Assembly: GCF_015910535.1 (NCBI RefSeq) | Contig: NZ_JACBJG010000007.1 | Location: forward strand, 62,001-126,000 | DNA: 64,000 nucleotides | Direction: 5' to 3' | From: Saccharomonospora sp. NB11 | Lineage (GTDB): Bacteria; Actinomycetota; Actinomycetes; Mycobacteriales; Pseudonocardiaceae | In this document: positions 1-12,397 of the stretch, in pieces | Numbering within the stretch: position 1 is the stretch's first letter | Layout of the letters: every line of letters starts with the position of its first letter | The notes under the pieces: model-generated | The model's input: the letters and a program-made list of their open reading frames with translations, nothing else | The model's database searches: none | Told to the model about the DNA's origin: nothing | Made by a program: the position numbers and the translations under genes

Positions 1-1770
1 GCGCAAACCTTGCGCACGTTGGCGGACGTCGCGGCGGTGCCCGACATCTTCGACGTCGTCGAGGCCGGTGGCCACCGGTTCATCGTCATGGAGTACGTCG
101 AGGGAACGAACCTGTGGACTTGGCTCGGCCAACGGCACCCCATGATCGTGCTCGACGAACCGACCGAGGCCGACTACCGGCGCTACGCCGACGAGGCCAC
201 CACCGTGCTGGCAGCGGTGGGCCGCGCGCTCGACGAGATCCACGAGCACGGCATCGGGTTCGGTGACATGAACTTCGGCAACGTCATCGTCCAGGACGAC
301 GGAGCCGTGCGTCTCGTCGATCTCGAAATGGCGTACGACCTCGCCGACGAGCACTACGAACCGGGCCTCGGCACGATCGGGTTCCTCCCCGGCAAGGGAG
401 CGACCGGACTGGAGATCGACGACTACGCGCTGGCTGCGTTGAAGCTCTCGCTGTTCTTCCCGATGGAGAAGCTGCGCATCTTCGACCAGTCCAAGTTGGA
501 CCTTCACTTGTCGATCTTGTCCTCGCGGTTCGGCCTGCCGGACGACGAGGTCGAGGACATCCGGCGCACGCTGACCGCGCGTCCGCCCGCGGTACGCAGC
601 GAGTTCGTCGGGGCTCCGCCGCAGCTCGACCTGACGGTGCCGGACGATCGTCGCGTCGCGGTCGAGTCGATGCAGGCCGCGATCCTCGCGTCGGCGACGC
701 CGGAGCGGACCGACCGGCTGTTCCCCGGGGACTCCGCGGGCTTCTCCCCGGGCGGGGGCCTCAACCTGGCCCACGGTGCGGCGGGCATCCTGTGGGCCCT
801 GCACCGGACGGGCGCGACGATCGATCCGACGCTCGAACGCTGGTTCGTCGACAGGGCGCGCGAGGGCAAACCGATGCCACCCGGCCTCTACACCGGGGCA
901 CACGGCGTCGCCTACGTCCTCGACCAGTTGGGTCACCGGGAGCTCGCGCTCGACGTGCTCGACCGACCCGACGCCCAGGAGGACGGTCTCGCCGCGATCG
1001 GGATGTACGGCGGGCTGGCGGGCGTGGGGCTGAACCTGCTGCACTTCACGGACGAGCCACGATTCGACGAACGGCGCGCGCGGGTGACCGAACGCCTCGT
1101 CGAGGCTCTCGACGGTCCCGCGCAGGACGGCGGGCCGGTGCGCTCCGACGGCGGGGACCGCGCGCCGTCGAAGACCGGGTTGCTGCACGGGTTCGCGGGT
1201 GTGGCGCTGTACTTCCTCGAACTGCACAGGCGCACCGGCGACGAGTCGGCGCTTAATCACGCCGTGACGGCGCTGCACCGGGATCTCGATCGGTGCGTGC
1301 GCACCGTCTCCGGGTCGTTGCAGGTGGAGGAGCCGGGACTCAGGACGAACTGCTACCTCTCGGTGGGCAGCGCCGGGATCGCCCTCGTGGCCGACGAGGT
1401 GCTCGACCATCGTCACGACGAGCGCATCGCGGACGCGGTGCCGTTGCTGTTGAAGGCCTGCTGCAGCGAGTTCGTGCTACAGCCCCAGCTGTTCGCGGGA
1501 CGGGCTGGGCTGCTGGCCGCGGTGTCGCGACACCTGTCCCGGGCGCGAAGCCGTGACACCGAGCTCGACGGTGCGGCGGTCGTGCGGCGCCATCTTTCGA
1601 ACCTGCGGTGGCATGCGTTGTCCTATCGGGGCGGTCTCACGTTCCCGGGGGAGTACTGCCTTCGCTTGTCGATGGATCTCGCGACGGGAACGGCGGGTGT
1701 GCTTCTCGCTCTCGCGGAAATGTCGGGTGAAGGAGTGTCGATCCTGCCGTTTCTCAGTTCGAAAATTTGA
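1..1770 (+). CDS. Class III lanthipeptide synthetase (LanKC), 5'-truncated by the window edge
   Basis: This bifunctional RiPP enzyme phosphorylates and eliminates Ser/Thr of a precursor peptide, then cyclises Cys onto the dehydroamino acids. The visible part begins inside the kinase domain, with a hinge-like FIVMEYVEG, a catalytic loop GDMNFGN and a metal-binding VDLE in place of DFG. A LanC-like cyclase follows with repeated GAAG, GAHGVA, GGLAG, LHGFAG and SVGSAG turns. Where class I, II and IV cyclases have the Cys-His zinc ligands (CHG), this protein reads QLFAGRAG, and no equivalent Cys pair is seen. That absence marks class III. The N-terminal lyase and the start of the kinase lie upstream of the window. 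Three precursor genes follow 218 nt downstream on the same strand. Confidence 0.93.
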   Translation, partial: AQTLRTLADVAAVPDIFDVVEAGGHRFIVMEYVEGTNLWTWLGQRHPMIVLDEPTEADYRRYADEATTVLAAVGRALDEIHEHGIGFGDMNFGNVIVQDDGAVRLVDLEMAYDLADEHYEPGLGTIGFLPGKGATGLEIDDYALAALKLSLFFPMEKLRIFDQSKLDLHLSILSSRFGLPDDEVEDIRRTLTARPPAVRSEFVGAPPQLDLTVPDDRRVAVESMQAAILASATPERTDRLFPGDSAGFSPGGGLNLAHGAAGILWALHRTGATIDPTLERWFVDRAREGKPMPPGLYTGAHGVAYVLDQLGHRELALDVLDRPDAQEDGLAAIGMYGGLAGVGLNLLHFTDEPRFDERRARVTERLVEALDGPAQDGGPVRSDGGDRAPSKTGLLHGFAGVALYFLELHRRTGDESALNHAVTALHRDLDRCVRTVSGSLQVEEPGLRTNCYLSVGSAGIALVADEVLDHRHDERIADAVPLLLKACCSEFVLQPQLFAGRAGLLAAVSRHLSRARSRDTELDGAAVVRRHLSNLRWHALSYRGGLTFPGEYCLRLSMDLATGTAGVLLALAEMSGEGVSILPFLSSKI

Positions 1771-1987: not shown

Positions 1988-2074
1988 ATGTCGATCCTGG
2001 ACCTTCAGGTGCTCGAGGTTCCCGCGGCCGAGGCCGAGCTGCCCAACAGCACGGCTTCCGTCAACTGCGGCTGA
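1988..2074 (+). CDS. Class III lanthipeptide precursor A1 (core ...STASVNCG)
   Basis: 28-residue peptide with start ATG 7 nt after GGGAGGAGGTG. The leader opens SILDLQ, matching the ILxLQ-type recognition motif known in class III leaders, and continues LEVPAAEAELPN. The C-terminus STASVNCG contains exactly Ser-x2-Ser-x2-Cys, the pattern from which class III enzymes form labionin (or lanthionine). This is the most diverged of the three copies: it ends in Cys-Gly rather than Cys, and carries Val at the position that is Tyr or Trp in the others. No Gly-Gly leader cleavage site is present, so leader removal would need another protease. Confidence 0.85.
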   Translation: MSILDLQVLEVPAAEAELPNSTASVNCG

Positions 2075-2127
2075 ACCACGTCGAAGCGTGTGATGACGAC
2101 GAGTGTGTCGGAAGGAGGTGTTGAGTG

Positions 2128-2211
2128 ATGTCGATCCTGGACCTGCAGACCCTCGAGGTGCCGGCGGTCGAGGCCGAGCTGCCCAACAGCACGGCTTCCT
2201 ACAACTGCTGA
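2128..2211 (+). CDS. Class III lanthipeptide precursor A2 (core ...STASYNC)
   Basis: 27-residue peptide that starts with ATG after GAAGGAGG. The leader begins SILDLQTLEVP and the sequence ends LPNSTASYNC, again Ser-x2-Ser-x2-Cys, here with Tyr inside the second loop and Cys as the last residue. It is nearly identical to the next copy in both coding sequence and ribosome-binding region, so the pair is a recent tandem duplication. The product would be one of the smallest labionin-type cores. Without a LanD-type decarboxylase in view, there is no evidence for an avionin ending. Confidence 0.87.
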   Translation: MSILDLQTLEVPAVEAELPNSTASYNC

Positions 2212-2266
2212 GCGAGTGATCGAACAGCTCACTGAACTGCGACAACGTGGAAGGAGGTGTTGAGTG

Positions 2267-2350
2267 ATGTCGATCCTGGACCTGCAGACCCTCGAGGTTC
2301 CGGCGGTTGAGGCCGAGCTGCCCAACAGCACGGCGTCGTGGAACTGCTGA
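2267..2350 (+). CDS. Class III lanthipeptide precursor A3 (core ...STASWNC)
   Basis: 27-residue peptide, identical to A2 in protein sequence except Trp for Tyr two residues before the terminal Cys (STASWNC). It has the same upstream AAGGAGGTGTTGAGTG. The remaining differences from A2 are synonymous third-position changes plus the Trp codon, which suggests the protein is under selection while the loop residue diversifies. Trp is the glycosylated residue in the known labionin peptide NAI-112, and a glycosyltransferase gene follows about 100 nt downstream. Confidence 0.87.
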   Translation: MSILDLQTLEVPAVEAELPNSTASWNC

Positions 2351-2371
2351 GCCACTGCTCGGTAGCTGAGG

Positions 2372-2408
2372 GGCGGTGGAGGTGTGTCTCGGGTACGCCT
2401 CCACCGCC
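2372..2408 (+). terminator. Perfect 11-bp hairpin between lanA3 and the glycosyltransferase gene
   Basis: GGCGGTGGAGG pairs with CCTCCACCGCC across a 15-nt loop, with no T-run after it. Placed between precursor genes and a modifying enzyme, it probably acts as an attenuator or mRNA 3' stabiliser that gives excess precursor transcript. This role is inferred. Confidence 0.7.
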
Positions 2409-2454
2409 ACCTCCTCGTGGTCGGCGGAAACGAATCCGAGGAAAGGCGCGGTCG

Positions 2455-3783
2455 ATGAAGACGTTGCTCTACGCGTACGGATCGCGTGGTGACGTGCAGC
2501 CTTATCTCGCGTTGGCGTACGCGATGACGGAGGCGGGGCACGAGGTCATGCTCGCCGGGCCCGAGAGTTTTCGACCGCTGGCCGCGCGTTACGGGATTCC
2601 GTATTTTCCGCGTGACGAAGAACTGCTGAATTTCTATTACAACGACCCGGACGTCGCGGATTGGCTCCGTAATCAGGGGCACGATTACCGCGCGACCGCG
2701 AAGATTCGGAACCGCGCGCTCGCCAAACTGGGTGAGTTCATGGCGCCGCGGTTTCCGGCGATGTTGCGGGAATTGTCGGACGCGGCCGAGCAGTTCGGCC
2801 CCGACCTGATCGTCCAGTCGTACGAGATGTGGCCGTGGGAACAGGCTCACCACGTCGCCGAGCAGCGGCGGGTGCCGTACGCGGTCGCCACGTTGTTCCC
2901 CAACATGGTGCCGAACTTCTCGTACGCGGCGAAGTTCGTGCCGCCGCAGTGGCGCATGCCCGGGCTGCTCAAGAGGGCGACCTACGAACTCCCGAAGCTC
3001 GTCCGTCCCATCGGTCATCGGGACATCATGGAATGGCGGCGTCAGACGCTGGGCTTGCCGGATCGCAAGGGCGTCGATCCGTTGCGCACCGTCGACGGGC
3101 GGCCCGCTCCCGTGGTGCACGGATTCAGCTCCAGCCTCGTGCCGTCGGCGAAGGGGCTTCCGGCGAACGCCGTCACCACCGGGTTCTGGTACCTGCCCAC
3201 GCCGACGTCGTTCGAGCCCGCGCGGGATCTCGTGGACTTCCTCGACACGGGGTCCACGCCGGTGTGCGTCACCCTCGGCACGGTGCGGGGCACCGACCCG
3301 TACCGAGCGGGCGAGTTGGTCGTGGAGGCGCTGCGCCGCGCGGGCAGGCGAGCCGTGGTCATCAAGTCGAGGGGCAGCATCGAGATCCCGGACCCGCCGG
3401 AGGACGTGTTCGTCACCGACGACGTTCCCTATCCGTGGCTGCTGCCTCGGGTCGCCGCCGTCGTGCACGCGGCCGGTGTCGGCACCGTCAACGAGGCGCT
3501 GCGTGCGGGTGTGCCCCAGGTGGCGTGCCCGGTCCACAATGAACAGGCGTCCTGGGCGATGCGTGCCCACGCGATCGGTGTGGCTCCCAAACCGATCCGC
3601 AACCGCGACCTGACGCCGGACAACCTCGCGGCGGCGATCCGGCTCGCGACGACCGACCCGGGTATGGCCGCCAGGGCCGCCGAGCACGGTGAGGCCGTGC
3701 GGAAGGAGACCGGGGCGGCGACCGCTGCGGCCGTTCTGGCGCGTGTCCACGACCAGGCGACGACCGCGCCCCTGCGCCACTGA
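2455..3783 (+). CDS. GT1-family (UGT/MGT-like) glycosyltransferase in the lanthipeptide locus
   Basis: 442-residue GT-B fold enzyme. The N-terminus has the classic GSRGDVQPYLAL acceptor-domain motif (residues 9-20). The C-terminal nucleotide-sugar motif reads HAAGVGTVNEALRAGVPQ near residue 337, a variant of HGGxGTxxEAL. The family transfers sugars to small lipophilic or aromatic acceptors. The ATG is chosen because AGGAAAGG precedes it and the alignment motif begins at once; an upstream ATG in frame at 2338 lies inside lanA3. Position right behind three precursors suggests it glycosylates the finished lanthipeptide, perhaps the Tyr or Trp of A2 or A3. That role is inferred. Confidence 0.88.
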   Translation: MKTLLYAYGSRGDVQPYLALAYAMTEAGHEVMLAGPESFRPLAARYGIPYFPRDEELLNFYYNDPDVADWLRNQGHDYRATAKIRNRALAKLGEFMAPRFPAMLRELSDAAEQFGPDLIVQSYEMWPWEQAHHVAEQRRVPYAVATLFPNMVPNFSYAAKFVPPQWRMPGLLKRATYELPKLVRPIGHRDIMEWRRQTLGLPDRKGVDPLRTVDGRPAPVVHGFSSSLVPSAKGLPANAVTTGFWYLPTPTSFEPARDLVDFLDTGSTPVCVTLGTVRGTDPYRAGELVVEALRRAGRRAVVIKSRGSIEIPDPPEDVFVTDDVPYPWLLPRVAAVVHAAGVGTVNEALRAGVPQVACPVHNEQASWAMRAHAIGVAPKPIRNRDLTPDNLAAAIRLATTDPGMAARAAEHGEAVRKETGAATAAAVLARVHDQATTAPLRH

Positions 3784-4823: not shown

Positions 4824-5429
4824 ATGTACGCGTACCACTACCCGGCTCCCGCCCTCCGTCCCCAGCGAGCACTGCCGACGCTGCGCACCGATCGGTTGAC
4901 CCTGCGTCCCGTGCGCGTCGCGGATCTCGACGCGATCCACGGCTACCTCTCCCGCGAGGACGTGTGCCGGTACCTGCTGCACGAGCCGCTGTCGCGGGAC
5001 GAGGTGAAAGCCAAGCTCGTCGCCTGCGAACAGCGGACGACGCTGGAACAGCAGGGCGACTTCCTCCGGCTGGCGGTGGTGCCCGACGAGGTCGGTGCCG
5101 TGGTGGGGGACGTCGTTCTCGACACCCGGTCGGTCGAGAACGCCACGGTCGAGCTCGGGTGGGTGTTCTCCCCGGACGTGGCGGGCCGAGGCTATGCCAC
5201 GGAGGCGGCCGTGGCGCTGCGTGACTACGCCTTCGAGACGCTCGACGCCCACCGCATCGTGGCGCACCTGCACCCGGACAACACGGCGTCGTCGCGCCTG
5301 TGCGAGCGGCTGGGCATGCGCCACGAGGCGCTGCATCACGCCGACATGTGGCTCAAGGGGCATTGGGAGGACAGCAGCGTCTACGCGATCCTGCGTCACG
5401 AGTGGGCGGCGTCGTCGGCCGCCGAGTGA
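4824..5429 (+). CDS. GNAT N-acetyltransferase, RimJ/RimL-like
   Basis: 201 residues of the Acetyltransf_3 type. It begins with the typical LRTDRLTLRPVRVADLDAIHGYL and contains the acetyl-CoA pyrophosphate loop VAGRGYATEAAVALRDYAF and the C-terminal NTASSRLCERLGM. The family acetylates protein N-termini or small amines. The ATG used follows GGAAGGATCGGGGG; a more upstream ATG would add an unconserved 22-residue extension. It converges on the TetR gene with only 9 nt between stops. Confidence 0.85.
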   Translation: MYAYHYPAPALRPQRALPTLRTDRLTLRPVRVADLDAIHGYLSREDVCRYLLHEPLSRDEVKAKLVACEQRTTLEQQGDFLRLAVVPDEVGAVVGDVVLDTRSVENATVELGWVFSPDVAGRGYATEAAVALRDYAFETLDAHRIVAHLHPDNTASSRLCERLGMRHEALHHADMWLKGHWEDSSVYAILRHEWAASSAAE

Positions 5430-6593: not shown

Positions 6594-8897
6594 GTGGGCA
6601 CGCGTGAGCGGCTCGCGGACCCGGTCCGACGGGTGGGGGTTCGCGTCGAAGGCGTGGTGCAGGGGGTCGGCTTCCGGCCGTTCGTGCACGGGCTGGCGCA
6701 GCGGTTCGGGCTCACCGGACACGTGGGCAACGACACCGAGGGAGTGGTGATCGAGGCCGAGGGGGCGCGCGAGGCGGTGTCCGCGTTCCTCAAGGCACTG
6801 CGTGTCGAAGCTCCCGTGCTGGCGACGGTCGACCGGGTCGACGTGGTCGACCTCGCGTGTCGGGGCGGCGACGGGTTCGTCATCGCCGACAGCGACATTC
6901 ACGGTCCACGTCGGACACTCGTGACCGCGGACTCGGCCACGTGCGAGGCGTGTCTGGCCGAGTTGTTCGACCCCCGCGGCCGGCGGTACCGCTACCCGTT
7001 CGTCAACTGCACCGACTGCGGGCCGCGTTACACGATCGTGCGCGACGTCCCCTACGACCGACCGAACACCACGATGGCCGCCTTCGACCTGTGTGCGGCG
7101 TGCGCGCGGGAGTACGACGACCCGACCGACCGCCGCTTCCACGCCCAACCGGTGTGCTGTCCCGAGTGCGGTCCGCGGTTGCGGCTCGTCGACGCCTCGG
7201 GACTCCCACTGGAGGGCGACCCGGTGTCACGGGTCGCGGAGTTGCTGCGTGCGGGCGCGGTGGTGGCCGTCAAGGGGCTCGGTGGTTACCACCTCGCGGT
7301 CGACGCGACGAACCCGTCGGCGGCGGCGACTCTGCGGGCGCGGAAACGCCGTGAGGACAAGGCGTTCGCCGTCATGGTCCCCACTCTCGACGACGCCCGC
7401 CGACTGTGTCATGTGGACGATATCGAGGCGCGAGTGCTCGCGGATCGCCGACGACCCATCGTGTTGCTCGACCGCCGTGCCTCCGGCGGCGTCGCCCCGG
7501 CGGTCGCACCCGGCACGCGCAGGCTCGGCCTCATGCTGCCGTACACGCCGCTGCATCACCTGCTGGTGCGGGAGGTCGGGACGCCACTCGTGCTCACCAG
7601 CGGCAACGTCTCCGACGAGCCCATCGCGTACACCGACGAGGACGCGGTGGCCCGCCTGGGCGGCATCGCCGACGCGTTCTGCGTGCACGACCGGCCGATC
7701 CACGTGCGCACCGACGACTCCGTGGTGAGCACGTGGCGCGGCACCGTCGTGATGGTCCGGCGTTCGCGCGGGTACGCGCCCGAGCCCGTCACCTGCGCGG
7801 CCGCGTTCCCGAGGCCCGTGCTCGCCTGCGGGGCCGAGCTGAAGAACACCGTGTGTCTGGCCTCGGGACGCAGGGCGGTGCTGTCGCACCACATCGGCGA
7901 CCTGAAGAACGTCGAGACGCTGCGTGCGTTCACCGAGGCCATCGAGCATCTCGCGCGACTCTTCGACATCCGGCCCGCCGTGGTGGCCCACGATCTGCAT
8001 CCCGACTACGCCTCCACGCGGTACGCGGTGGAGGAAAGCGGTCTCGACCCGGTCGGGGTGCAGCACCACCACGCCCACGTGGCGGCATGCCTGGCCGACA
8101 ACGGCCGCGACGACAGCGACGAGCGCGTGATCGGCGTCGCCTTCGACGGCACCGGGTACGGCACCGACGGAACGGTGTGGGGTGGGGAGTTCCTGCTCGC
8201 CACGTGTGCCGAGTTCGAGCGGGTCGGACACCTCGCGGCGGTGCCGATGCCGGGTGGGGACGTGGCAGTGCGGCAGCCGTGGCGGATGGCGGCCTCGTAC
8301 CTGCACGGCGTCGACGGAGCCGAGGCACTGCCCGTCGCGCGGCGGCAGGGCGCCCGCTGGGAGCAGGTGCGCCGGTTGCTCGACTCGCGACTGCCCGTGC
8401 CCCGCACGTCGAGTGCGGGGAGGCTCTTCGACGCCGTCGCGGCCGTGCTCGGCGTGCGCGACACCGTCACCTACGAGGGGCAGGCGGCGATCGGGCTGGA
8501 GCAACGAGCCGACCCGACATGTGCCGACGGCTACGAGGTGGGGATCGCCGACCGCGACGGCACGCTGATCGTCGACGGTCCCGGCCTCGTCCGGGCGGTG
8601 GTGGACGACCGGGGCCGGGGCAGTGAGCCCGCGGTGGTGGCGGCCCGGTTCCACAACGCTCTCGCCACCGCCGTGGGCCGGACCTGCCGGACGATCGCCG
8701 ACCGCACCGGCGTGCGCACGGTGGCGTTGTCGGGTGGCGTGTTCGCCAATCGGCTGCTGCTCACGCGCACGGCCGACGTGCTGGAGCGCGACGGCTTCAC
8801 CGTGCTGACCCATTCCCGGGTGCCGAGCAACGACGGTGGCATCAGTCTCGGGCAGGCCGTGGTGGTGGGTGCCCGCGACCGGGCGACACGCCGGTGA
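6594..8897 (+). CDS. hypF: Carbamoyltransferase HypF
   Basis: 767-residue enzyme that makes thiocarboxamide on HypE from carbamoyl phosphate, the source of the CN ligands of [NiFe] hydrogenase. Domains in order: acylphosphatase (VVQGVGFRPFVHGLA), two zinc fingers (CEACLAELF and NCTDCGPRY, then DLCAACAREY and CCPECGPRL), a YrdC-like nucleotide-binding domain, and a Kae1-like domain with the metal-binding HHHAHVAACLAD. The GTG start gives the expected family N-terminus. It stands apart from the other hyp genes, convergent to hypB. Confidence 0.96.
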   Translation: MGTRERLADPVRRVGVRVEGVVQGVGFRPFVHGLAQRFGLTGHVGNDTEGVVIEAEGAREAVSAFLKALRVEAPVLATVDRVDVVDLACRGGDGFVIADSDIHGPRRTLVTADSATCEACLAELFDPRGRRYRYPFVNCTDCGPRYTIVRDVPYDRPNTTMAAFDLCAACAREYDDPTDRRFHAQPVCCPECGPRLRLVDASGLPLEGDPVSRVAELLRAGAVVAVKGLGGYHLAVDATNPSAAATLRARKRREDKAFAVMVPTLDDARRLCHVDDIEARVLADRRRPIVLLDRRASGGVAPAVAPGTRRLGLMLPYTPLHHLLVREVGTPLVLTSGNVSDEPIAYTDEDAVARLGGIADAFCVHDRPIHVRTDDSVVSTWRGTVVMVRRSRGYAPEPVTCAAAFPRPVLACGAELKNTVCLASGRRAVLSHHIGDLKNVETLRAFTEAIEHLARLFDIRPAVVAHDLHPDYASTRYAVEESGLDPVGVQHHHAHVAACLADNGRDDSDERVIGVAFDGTGYGTDGTVWGGEFLLATCAEFERVGHLAAVPMPGGDVAVRQPWRMAASYLHGVDGAEALPVARRQGARWEQVRRLLDSRLPVPRTSSAGRLFDAVAAVLGVRDTVTYEGQAAIGLEQRADPTCADGYEVGIADRDGTLIVDGPGLVRAVVDDRGRGSEPAVVAARFHNALATAVGRTCRTIADRTGVRTVALSGGVFANRLLLTRTADVLERDGFTVLTHSRVPSNDGGISLGQAVVVGARDRATRR

Positions 8898-8947
8898 AAC
8901 CGGTCGTCGGCATCGGGTGGGGTGCCTTCGTGTTCGGCGAGGAACTG

Positions 8948-9009
8948 CGTGGCGGCGGGTGGATCGCGGCGCAACTCGCAGGCTGCGCCGCGATCCACCC
9001 GCCGCCACG
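8948..9009. terminator. Bidirectional terminator: 26-bp perfect hairpin between hypF and hypB
   Basis: Two 26-nt arms (8948-8973 and 8984-9009) are perfect inverted copies around a 10-nt loop. The hairpin sits in the 156-nt gap between the convergent hypF and hypB stops. There is no T-run on either strand, as is usual in actinobacteria. The arms are long enough that cruciform extrusion or transcript interference can be considered. Confidence 0.85.
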
Positions 9010-9053
9010 GTGTTGCTCGCCCGCTCACCGCCGCTTCAGGGCCCGGCGGGTGC

Positions 9054-9848
9054 TCACGAGGACGCCGACGGCACGGCCGACGACACCGACAGCGAGGACA
9101 CGGTCGAGGACTCCGACGATGCCGAGGACTCGGGCACGCCCGTCGCCTCGGCCGGCTGCAACTGCCGACGCAACCAGGAGAACCACTGAGACATGCCCTC
9201 GCCCGACACCGCCGAGGTCACCAGCAGCTCGGCGGCAGGATTGATCCGCTTGAGGTGCCGGGCGAAGTGGTCGACCTCGAATGTCAGGTACGGGATGAGA
9301 TCCGCCTTGGTGAGCACCACGAGGTCGGCCGCCCGGAACATGTGCGGGTACTTGAGCGGCTTGTCCTCGCCCTCGGTGGTGGAGGCCAGGACCACCCGTC
9401 GGCGCTCGCCCAGGTCGAACAGCGCCGGACACACCAGGTTGCCGACGTTCTCCACCACCACGAGCGACCGGTGCGGCGGGTCGAGTTCGCGCAGCGCCCT
9501 GGCCACCATGTCGGCGTCGAGGTGACATCCCGACCCCGTGTTGATCTGCACGACGCGGCAGCCCACCGCGCGCAGCCGGTCGGCGTCGAGCGAGCCCGCC
9601 TGATCACCCTCGACGGCACCGACGAAGGCGTCGACGGTCAACTCCCGCACCGTGCTCTCCAGCAGGGTCGTCTTGCCCGAGCCCGGCGCGCTCATCAGGT
9701 TGATCGCGAAGCACTCCCGGGAGGCGAGCCACGCCCGGTTCTTCTCGGCGAGTGCGTCGTTCTTCGCCAGCACGTCGCGTTCGACGGCCACCGTGTCGCG
9801 GTGCCCGGTGTCGATCTCGATGTCGTCACACCCGCAGGTCCCGCACAT
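9054..9848 (-). CDS. hypB: Hydrogenase nickel-insertion GTPase HypB
   Basis: 264-residue SIMIBI GTPase that drives nickel delivery into the hydrogenase large subunit. The N-terminus MCGTCGC carries the CxxCxC high-affinity metal site. The P-loop SAPGSGKTT is at residues 53-61, with ENVGNLVCP and LTKADL further on. The C-terminus ends in a Ser-rich tail of about 25 residues (SSASSESSTVSSLS...) not usual for the family. It is the last gene of the leftward operon and overlaps hypA by 23 nt. Confidence 0.96.
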   Translation of the reverse strand: MCGTCGCDDIEIDTGHRDTVAVERDVLAKNDALAEKNRAWLASRECFAINLMSAPGSGKTTLLESTVRELTVDAFVGAVEGDQAGSLDADRLRAVGCRVVQINTGSGCHLDADMVARALRELDPPHRSLVVVENVGNLVCPALFDLGERRRVVLASTTEGEDKPLKYPHMFRAADLVVLTKADLIPYLTFEVDHFARHLKRINPAAELLVTSAVSGEGMSQWFSWLRRQLQPAEATGVPESSASSESSTVSSLSVSSAVPSASS

Positions 9849-10179
9849 CGCGTTCCACCTCCACGTCCCGTATCCGCAGTTGTTGTCCCGATCTCACGTG
9901 TACGTCCATCGACCCGCACGAACAGGTGTCGAGGAACGACGACAGCTCCGACTCCGCCTCGCAGCGCGGACACCAGCCCCTGCCCGGCACGGTCTCGATC
10001 ACCAGCTCGGCGCCTTCCACCGGGGTGCCGCGGGTGACGGCGTCGAAGCAGAAGCGCAGTGCGTCGGCCTCCACACCGGACAGTGCGCCGACCTCCAGCC
10101 GCACCGACAGCACGCGGGCGCCACCGGTGTGGTCGACGACCGCGTCCACGACGCTCTGCGTGATCGACAGCTCGTGCAT
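9826..10179 (-). CDS. hypA: Hydrogenase nickel chaperone HypA
   Basis: 117 residues. It starts MHELSITQ, giving the N-terminal Met-His-Glu nickel site, and has a zinc ribbon. The first zinc pair is CPRC. The second reads TCSCGS, which is C-x-C rather than the usual C-x2-C, a small departure seen directly in the sequence. It delivers Ni to HypB and the large subunit. It begins 2 nt after the hypE stop and overlaps hypB. Confidence 0.94.
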   Translation of the reverse strand: MHELSITQSVVDAVVDHTGGARVLSVRLEVGALSGVEADALRFCFDAVTRGTPVEGAELVIETVPGRGWCPRCEAESELSSFLDTCSCGSMDVHVRSGQQLRIRDVEVERDVRDLRV

Positions 10180-10181
10180 GG

Positions 10182-11258
10182 TCAACAGATCCGGGGCAAG
10201 GGGTCGCCGACGAGCAGGTCGGCGATCCGGGTACCCCCGAACGCCGTGTTGAGCAGCACCGTGCCCGCGGGGTCGGGGCCGACCTTGCCGATCACGGCGG
10301 CCTGTGCGCCCTGGGGATGTCCGCGCAGCGCGGCGAGCGCCTCCTCGGCGTACGCGCCGTCGACCACCGCGACGAACCGGCCCTCGCACGCGACGTAGAG
10401 CGGGTCGATGCCCAGCAGCTCGCATGCACCCCGGACCTCGTCGCGCACCGGCACGGCGTCCTCGTCCACGACCACGGACACCTCGGCGGCGCGGGCGATC
10501 TCGTTCAGCACCGTCGCGACCCCGCCGCGCGTCGCGTCCCGCATGGCGCGCACCCCGGGCACGGCCAGCAGTCGAGCGCAGAGGTCGGCCAGCGGCGCGG
10601 TGTCGGACACGAGGTCCGACTCGATGTCGAGTTCACCGCGCGCGAGCATCACGGTGACGCCGTGATCGCCCACGGGGCCCGAGACCAGGACCGCGTCGCC
10701 GGGGCGAGCGGTGTGGATGCCCAGGGCCCGGTCGGTGGGCAGCAGGCCGATGCCCGTCGTGTTGACGTAGCAGCCGTCTCCGCTGCCGCGCCCGACGACC
10801 TTCGTGTCGCCGGTCACCAGCGTCACACCCACCGCGTCGGCGCACTCCCGCATCGAGGTCACGATGCGGCGCAAGTCGGTGATCGGGAAGCCTTCCTCCA
10901 GGATGAAGCCGCACGACAGATACGCGGGAGTGGCGCCCGCGACGGCCAGGTCGTTGACGGTGCCGTTCACGGCGAGGTCGCCGATGTTGCCGCCGGGGAA
11001 GAACAGCGGCGACACGACGTAGGAGTCGGTGGTCATGGCCAGCCGGGTGCCACCGAGCACGAGGTCGGCGGCGTCGCCGAGCGGTTCCAGCAGCGCGTTG
11101 CGGAACGCGTCGACGAACACCGCGTCGACCAGCGTCTGGGTCGCCTTGCCACCCGCGCCGTGTGCTGCCGTGACGCGCTCCTCCCGCACTCTCGGCTTGC
11201 GGCGGCGGGCCCGTTCGATGCGGTCGAGGACGTCCTCCTCGGTGCGCAGGGTGCTCAT
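10182..11258 (-). CDS. hypE: Hydrogenase CN-ligand synthesis protein HypE
   Basis: 358 residues of the PurM/AIR-synthase fold. HypF carbamoylates its C-terminal Cys, and HypE dehydrates this to a thiocyanate that supplies CN to iron. The protein ends in the diagnostic PRIC, so the acceptor Cys is intact. AAHGAGGKATQTLVD and TDSYVVSPLFFPGGNIGDLA are conserved ATP-site stretches. Its ATG overlaps the hypD stop by 4 nt (ATGA). Confidence 0.96.
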   Translation of the reverse strand: MSTLRTEEDVLDRIERARRRKPRVREERVTAAHGAGGKATQTLVDAVFVDAFRNALLEPLGDAADLVLGGTRLAMTTDSYVVSPLFFPGGNIGDLAVNGTVNDLAVAGATPAYLSCGFILEEGFPITDLRRIVTSMRECADAVGVTLVTGDTKVVGRGSGDGCYVNTTGIGLLPTDRALGIHTARPGDAVLVSGPVGDHGVTVMLARGELDIESDLVSDTAPLADLCARLLAVPGVRAMRDATRGGVATVLNEIARAAEVSVVVDEDAVPVRDEVRGACELLGIDPLYVACEGRFVAVVDGAYAEEALAALRGHPQGAQAAVIGKVGPDPAGTVLLNTAFGGTRIADLLVGDPLPRIC

Positions 11259-12397
11259 ACGGTGGTCGCCTCCTTGACGCGCCGACGGGTGAGGCGGCCG
11301 AAGTTGTAGTAGGCGGCGCACGCACCCTCCGGCGAGACCATGCAGGTGCCGATGGGGGTCTCCGGGGTGCACGCGGTGCCGAAGACCTTGCACTCCCACG
11401 GCTTCAGCACGCCCTTGAGCACCTCGCCGCACTGACACGACTTCGGGTCGGCGACCCGCACCCCGGGCAGGTCGAAGCGCTTCTCCGCGTCGAAGTTCGC
11501 GTACTCGTCGCGCAACTGCAACGCCGAGTGGGAGATGAAGCCCAACCCGCGCCACTCGAAGTAGGGGCGCAGGCGCATGGTGCGGGCGATCGCGTCGAGC
11601 GCCACCGGGTTGCCCTGCCACGGCACCACGCGGGCGTACTGGTTCTCCACCTCGCAGCGGCCCTCGTGCAACTGCCGGAGCAGCCGGTGCACCGACTGGA
11701 GGATGTCCAGCGGCTCGAACCCGGCCACCACGAGCGGCTTGCCGTAGTCGCGGGGGATGAACTCGTACGGGCGGCAGCCGATGACCGTGGAGACGTGTCC
11801 GGGCCCGAGGAACCCGTCGAGGCGCAGGTCGGGGGAGTCCAGGATCGCCTTGATGCCCGGAATGATCGTGACGTGGTTGCAGAACACCGAGAAGTTCTCG
11901 ATGCCTTCCCGCTCTGCGCGCAGCAGGGTCATGGCGGTGGACGGCGCGGTGGTCTCGAACCCGATCGCCATGAACACGACCTGCTTGTCGGGGTTCTGCT
12001 TGGCGATGCGCAGCGAGTCCAGCGGCGAGTACACCATGCGGATGTCGGTGCCCTCGGAGTTGGAGTCGAAGAACGTGCCGTTCGAGCCGGGCACCCGCAT
12101 CATGTCCCCGAACGACGTCATGATGACGTCGGGCAGGCTCGCGATGTGGATGGCGTCGTCGACCCGGCCCATCGGGATCACGCACACCGGGCAGCCGGGC
12201 CCGTGCACCAGCGAGACTTCCTCCGGCAGGTAGTCGGCGATCCCGTGCTTGTAGATCGTGTGGGTGTGCCCGCCGCACACCTCCATGAACTTGTACTCGC
12301 GGCCCGGCTCGCACAGCTCGGCGATCCGGGCCGCCAGCACCCGGGCCGTGTCCGAGTCGCGGTACTCGTCGACAAAGCGCATCCTCGCCGCCTTCAC
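11255..12397 (-). CDS. hypD: Hydrogenase Fe(CN)2CO assembly protein HypD
   Basis: 380-residue [4Fe-4S] scaffold on which, with HypC, the Fe(CN)2CO unit is assembled. Visible motifs are MEVCGGHTHT, VHGPGCPVC and IGFETTAPSTA, plus the C-terminal cysteine set (SCQCGEVL, WECKVFGTACTP). The GTG start overlaps the hypC stop (GTGA). An in-frame ATG five codons later is an alternative that would lose the overlap. Confidence 0.96.
   Translation of the reverse strand: MKAARMRFVDEYRDSDTARVLAARIAELCEPGREYKFMEVCGGHTHTIYKHGIADYLPEEVSLVHGPGCPVCVIPMGRVDDAIHIASLPDVIMTSFGDMMRVPGSNGTFFDSNSEGTDIRMVYSPLDSLRIAKQNPDKQVVFMAIGFETTAPSTAMTLLRAEREGIENFSVFCNHVTIIPGIKAILDSPDLRLDGFLGPGHVSTVIGCRPYEFIPRDYGKPLVVAGFEPLDILQSVHRLLRQLHEGRCEVENQYARVVPWQGNPVALDAIARTMRLRPYFEWRGLGFISHSALQLRDEYANFDAEKRFDLPGVRVADPKSCQCGEVLKGVLKPWECKVFGTACTPETPIGTCMVSPEGACAAYYNFGRLTRRRVKEATTV

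Follow-up and report, generated by a model that had tools for sequence, protein, structure and literature searches.

What does a class III lanthipeptide synthetase make from three precursors that each hold a single ring-forming unit? The question is raised by positions 1988-2350 of a 64,000-nucleotide stretch of Saccharomonospora sp. NB11 DNA (the window), where a tandem array of three such precursors follows a gene for LanKC, the lyase-kinase-cyclase. The original prediction, made from the window, read the array as a small natural library of minimal single-bicycle peptides. Considered together with genes upstream of the window in the same genome, the array probably belongs to a hybrid cluster for lipids and ribosomally synthesized and post-translationally modified peptides (RiPPs). 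Its predicted products are N-acylated, probably labionin-bridged lipopeptides of eight residues, possibly glycosylated.

The precursor array and its synthetase

The three open reading frames (ORFs; Table 1) translate to A1 = MSILDLQVLEVPAAEAELPNSTASVNCG, A2 = MSILDLQTLEVPAVEAELPNSTASYNC and A3 = MSILDLQTLEVPAVEAELPNSTASWNC. These are 27-28 aa long, with a leader carrying ILDLQ (LxLQ-type) and a core, STASxNC, that fits the class III pattern S-x2-S-x2-3-C. All have strong ribosome-binding sites, and the NCBIfam SapB/AmfS model (NF033212, cut-off 25 bits) scores each of them. The ORFs form a three-copy tandem repeat (unit 113 nt, spacing 140/139), and the same array occurs in other genomes, where the original prediction had proposed to look for it. 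A chance array of ORFs is ruled out by the precursor-family matches, the ribosome-binding sites and this conservation. A promoter scan around the array found no sigma-70-like site.

Table 1. Features at the start of the window (positions within the window; precursor coordinates include the stop codon)
Feature	Position	Strand	Evidence
LanKC, class III lanthipeptide synthetase (lyase-kinase-cyclase), 3' part	1..1770	+	NF038151 E 1.5e-163 on truncated part
Precursor A1, core NSTASVNCG	1988..2074	+	Pfam RamS E 1.5e-5; NF033212 25.3 bits; AGGAGG 9 nt upstream of ATG
Precursor A2, core NSTASYNC	2128..2211	+	Pfam RamS E 9.9e-5; NF033212 24.9 bits; AGGAGG 9 nt upstream of ATG; 113-nt repeat unit
Precursor A3, core NSTASWNC	2267..2350	+	NF033212 26.3 bits; AGGAGG 9 nt upstream of ATG; unit 92% identical to that of A2
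Long G+C-rich hairpin, no U-run, between A3 and glycosyltransferase gene	2368..2413	+	Folding energy
GT-B glycosyltransferase (EryCIII-like/MGT type)	2455..3783	+	PF06722 E 2.4e-11

The architecture described in the original prediction is borne out. Each precursor has one Ser-x2-Ser-x2-Cys unit, the ring residue is Val in A1, Tyr in A2 and Trp in A3, and only A1 continues past the Cys, by one Gly. A2 and A3 are separated by four synonymous and one nonsynonymous nucleotide changes, their proteins being identical except for Tyr/Trp. A single synthetase was also correctly foreseen, as one LanKC gene ends 218 bp before the array. The window edge cuts this gene and the cluster; the full LanKC gene lies at C27:61170-63770 of the window genome. 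NF038151 is its best match, and it aligns with solved class III LanKC structures across most of its length. Compared with these structures, the aligned regions keep the catalytic positions (lyase Lys/His/Lys/Asp/Arg, kinase Lys and Asp).

Many members of the family have Pro at position -1 relative to the putative core. Prolyl oligopeptidase genes are found beside a related cluster (genome G098) and, in the window genome, elsewhere (C6:82967), and the enzyme is known in class III maturation, as cited in PMC8960859. An eight-residue core with Ser2, Ser5 and Cys8 therefore appears likely, its start being placed by Pro(-1); in A1, Gly is added as a ninth residue. The claim that cores this short are unusual for class III peptides is not supported. 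The lipolanthines microvionin, nocavionin and nocaviogua are likewise made by a LanKC from eight-residue Ser2-x2-Ser5-x2-Cys8 cores (PMC10435860, PMC10373908), nocaviogua being Ala1-Avi2-Val3-Ser4-Avi5-Asn6-Gly7-Avi8 (PMC10435860). The minimal core is thus not new; the window cluster differs from these by lacking the decarboxylase LanD, by having three precursor copies in an array and by its glycosyltransferase.

Lipid-making genes and related clusters

A lipidated product is indicated by GNAT, polyketide synthase (PKS) and acyl-ligase genes upstream, beyond what the window shows. On the precursor strand, which also carries LanKC, a GNAT gene is followed after 11 bp by a type I PKS (domains KS, AT, DH, KR and ACP; no thioesterase domain detected), and 580 bp separate the PKS from LanKC. 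The AT domain carries a VASH motif, which we take to be of the methylmalonyl type. On the opposite strand are genes for a lipid-type ABC exporter, for an SfLAP protein and for an ACP, as well as an AMP-ligase-like stretch. The same strand also encodes a second AMP-ligase, a FabF-like ketosynthase and two further enzymes, one thiamine-dependent and the other an aldehyde dehydrogenase. The locus thus holds both acyl chain genes, of PKS and fatty acid synthase (FAS) type, and an acyltransferase, as lipolanthine clusters do.

The goadvionin acyltransferase is a GNAT. Goadvionins and lipoavitides are class III peptides lipidated at the N-terminus (PMC13060382), as are microvionin and nocavionin, which bear a fatty acyl group there (PMC10373908); microvionin is active on MRSA (PMC10435860). 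In lipolanthines this acyl group is PKS/FAS-derived; here, the PKS/FAS and GNAT genes suggest a similar acylation. The title of Kozakai 2020, as cited in PMC10435860 and PMC13060382, states that an acyltransferase condenses polyketide and peptide in goadvionins. The window cluster, from which LanD is absent, is likened to theirs by this title and not by gene cluster. Lipoavitides reportedly use non-modular fatty acid synthase genes, to go by the title of Ren 2024, whereas a type I PKS is present here; this comparison, too, is by title and not by cores.

A search with the precursor alone retrieved 12 of 390 family genomes, 11 of them with eight-residue cores. GNAT lies within ~10 kb of the array in 10 of these 11 short-core clusters and ~12 kb off in the remaining one, that of G098. 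It is found at none of 21 control LanKC loci, of which 19 yielded precursors, all two-ring. A GNAT-based scan adds genomes of Prauserella, Kutzneria, Amycolatopsis, Saccharopolyspora, Crossiella, Frankia, Streptomyces, Nakamurella and others, and GNAT was found in 8 of the 395 genomes of a class-wide sample. GNAT and a LanKC with eight-residue cores co-occur in about 20 actinobacterial clusters, whether or not a type I PKS is present, and these clusters span many genera. Approximately half of the 20 were retrieved by GNAT itself, and the association is tested by the 11 precursor-found clusters only. Ser2, Ser5 and Cys8 are kept in all 29 distinct cores from the 20 clusters.

The LanKC tree places the window enzyme with that of a sister species (G009), then with those of G098 and G077, with full support. 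G098 and G077 share the gene order of the window cluster, with FabI and LanD added between PKS and LanKC, and their precursors contain LP-[SA]STGSITC, giving the Cys-terminal cores SSTGSITC and ASTGSITC. The enzyme of G939, a genome from another, distant actinobacterial family, sits on a long, far branch. A single origin of all short-core LanKC enzymes is not supported, as the tree needs two changes. LanKC itself is common (229 of 386 family genomes), and the short-core kind is therefore a minority within the family. A divergent short-core set was seen in G754 (L098, about 640-900), where three copies with the cores LSGISSDC and LSSVSVDC, and thus Asp at core position 7, adjoin GNAT and LanKC.

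The Tyr/Trp pair of A2 and A3 recurs. G009 encodes NSSASYNC and NSSASWNC, its Trp copies being partly visible (the leader of one is altered, and a contig end truncates the other), and G939 encodes GSSVSYNCG and NSSASWNCGG. The presence of the pair in both G009 and the distant G939 makes neutral duplicates less likely, and the pair may be under selection, or otherwise maintained, instead of forming a random library. The recurrence could alternatively stem from common ancestry or from transfer of the precursors. The small natural library of the original prediction is still possible for the array as such, but the recurrence favors a maintained pair over it. The G939 precursors (G939:C1:1806001-1826000, L096, 4304-19465) adjoin two PKS, GNAT and LanKC, then a protein resembling a nonribosomal peptide synthetase (AMP-binding, condensation and PP-binding domains). 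This locus is a possible RiPP-polyketide-nonribosomal peptide hybrid.

The predicted product and its rivals

In the proposed pathway, LanKC would bind the leader helix, then phosphorylate and eliminate Ser2 and Ser5, and addition of Cys8 would close one bicyclic labionin. Cleavage of the leader after the conserved Pro(-1) would release the eight-residue core (nine for A1), to whose N-terminus GNAT would transfer the PKS/FAS chain from a carrier protein. The glycosyltransferase may then add a sugar, and the product would be exported as an amphiphile. Several points weigh against this scheme. Labionin, although plausible, is indistinguishable from lanthionine by sequence. The LanKC tree does not demonstrate a common origin for all short-core enzymes, and the GNAT-retrieved half of the 20 clusters carries no weight for the GNAT association. 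Moreover, the closest solved relatives of the cluster GNAT are spermidine-type acetyltransferases, its use of long acyl chains being something that we infer.

The C-terminus sets the window cluster apart from the lipolanthines, whose avionin is formed via the flavoprotein decarboxylase LanD (MicD). PF02441 and LanD-protein searches found no LanD in the window genome, the sole PF02441 match being a 471-aa ORF of CoaBC size, and a C-terminal labionin rather than avionin would therefore be expected. For the bare cores after loss of two waters, the calculated [M+H]+ is 816.3305 (A1), 823.3039 (A2) and 846.3199 (A3), against 770.3250, 777.2984 and 800.3144 for the respective avionin forms. With this defining enzyme missing, the cluster is filed as lipolanthine-like and not as a lipolanthine, although it appears to work like one. 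The other short-core genomes mostly have no LanD near the cluster. Residues after the Cys occur in LanD-less clusters, namely in A1 (CG), G939 (CG and CGG) and Kutzneria (CFNA), which fits a relaxed C-terminus, albeit in small numbers; the Gly of A1 would block LanD. A true lipolanthine, in which an unrecognized or remote enzyme decarboxylates the C-terminal Cys of A2 and A3, is nevertheless conceivable since both end exactly at this Cys, LanD is present in the sister clusters of G098 and G077, and G009 has a LanD-like gene on the array contig. Given the missing gene in the window genome, the CysGly end of A1, and the G939 cores ending in CG and CGG beside a single PF02441 match of 410 aa (CoaBC size), we consider avionin improbable here. 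The LanD-like flavoprotein gene of G009 (L049, G009:C16, 2582-3172) lies ~38 kb from the array, and no lanthipeptide synthetase was seen adjoining it.

The remaining alternatives concern the lipid and the number of components. The plain, unlipidated class III set of the original prediction would require GNAT and PKS to form a separate neighboring cluster. LanKC, precursors and glycosyltransferase do form a unit behind the 580-bp gap, but GNAT accompanies the LanKC of eight-residue cores in about 20 clusters and is absent from the 21 controls, which renders this reading unlikely; a free-standing minimal peptide was rejected in view of the conserved GNAT/KS context. Still less can be said for a SapB/AmfS-like peptide, be it lanthionine-only or a signal or morphogen. 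NF033212 scores near the cut-off speak for it, whereas SapB-type control precursors have two S-x-x-S-x-x-C units, against one here, and longer cores, and the lipid genes are not in those loci. Somewhat less doubtful, and compatible with the lipopeptide reading, is cooperation of the peptides in a two-component (Tyr and Trp) or three-component (with Val) system. The pair in G009 and G939 argues for it, but the copies in most related clusters lack a Tyr/Trp pair.

NAI-112, a class III peptide with a longer core, offers a parallel for the glycosyltransferase. Its cluster also encodes one, and a deoxyhexose is attached to Trp (PMC10373908; AplG, PMC12328550). Here, however, homologues 3' of the array are found not only in G009 but also in G098 and G077, with cores lacking Trp and Tyr (SSTGSITC, ASTGSITC). 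Glycosylation of Trp/Tyr as the main role of the enzyme is therefore weakly founded, and the acyl chain would be the likelier site for a sugar because the homologues occur with non-aromatic cores. Between A3 and this gene, a 90-nt stretch containing the hairpin has a minimum free energy of -47.7 kcal/mol (z -3.68; none of 200 shuffles equally stable); the hairpin is a possible attenuator or processing site that could set precursor against downstream expression. A second GNAT-family acetyltransferase (4824-5429), encoded after the glycosyltransferase and a hydrolase, is an ordinary PF13302 match of doubtful cluster membership. Further on, ORFs at 6594-12397 resemble, from their translations only, the hydrogenase maturation genes HypF, HypB, HypA, HypE and HypD.

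Reach of the family

A wider proposal is tentative: a LanD-less, lipolanthine-like branch in many actinobacterial genera that would make glycosylated N-acylated labionin octapeptides, with Tyr/Trp variants as a functional pair. In their large-scale mining for lanthipeptides, Walker et al. left out ORFs of <30 aa (PMC7268733), and precursors of the present length would therefore be absent from that survey. With such a limit in at least one large mining study, short-core clusters may have been missed or under-counted. If the proposal is true, lipidated one-bicycle lanthipeptides would extend beyond a few compounds to form a broad family in the actinobacteria, and the decarboxylase thought to define them could be missing from many. 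The paired Tyr/Trp cores would allow a direct distinction between precursor copies as a library and as a cooperating pair.
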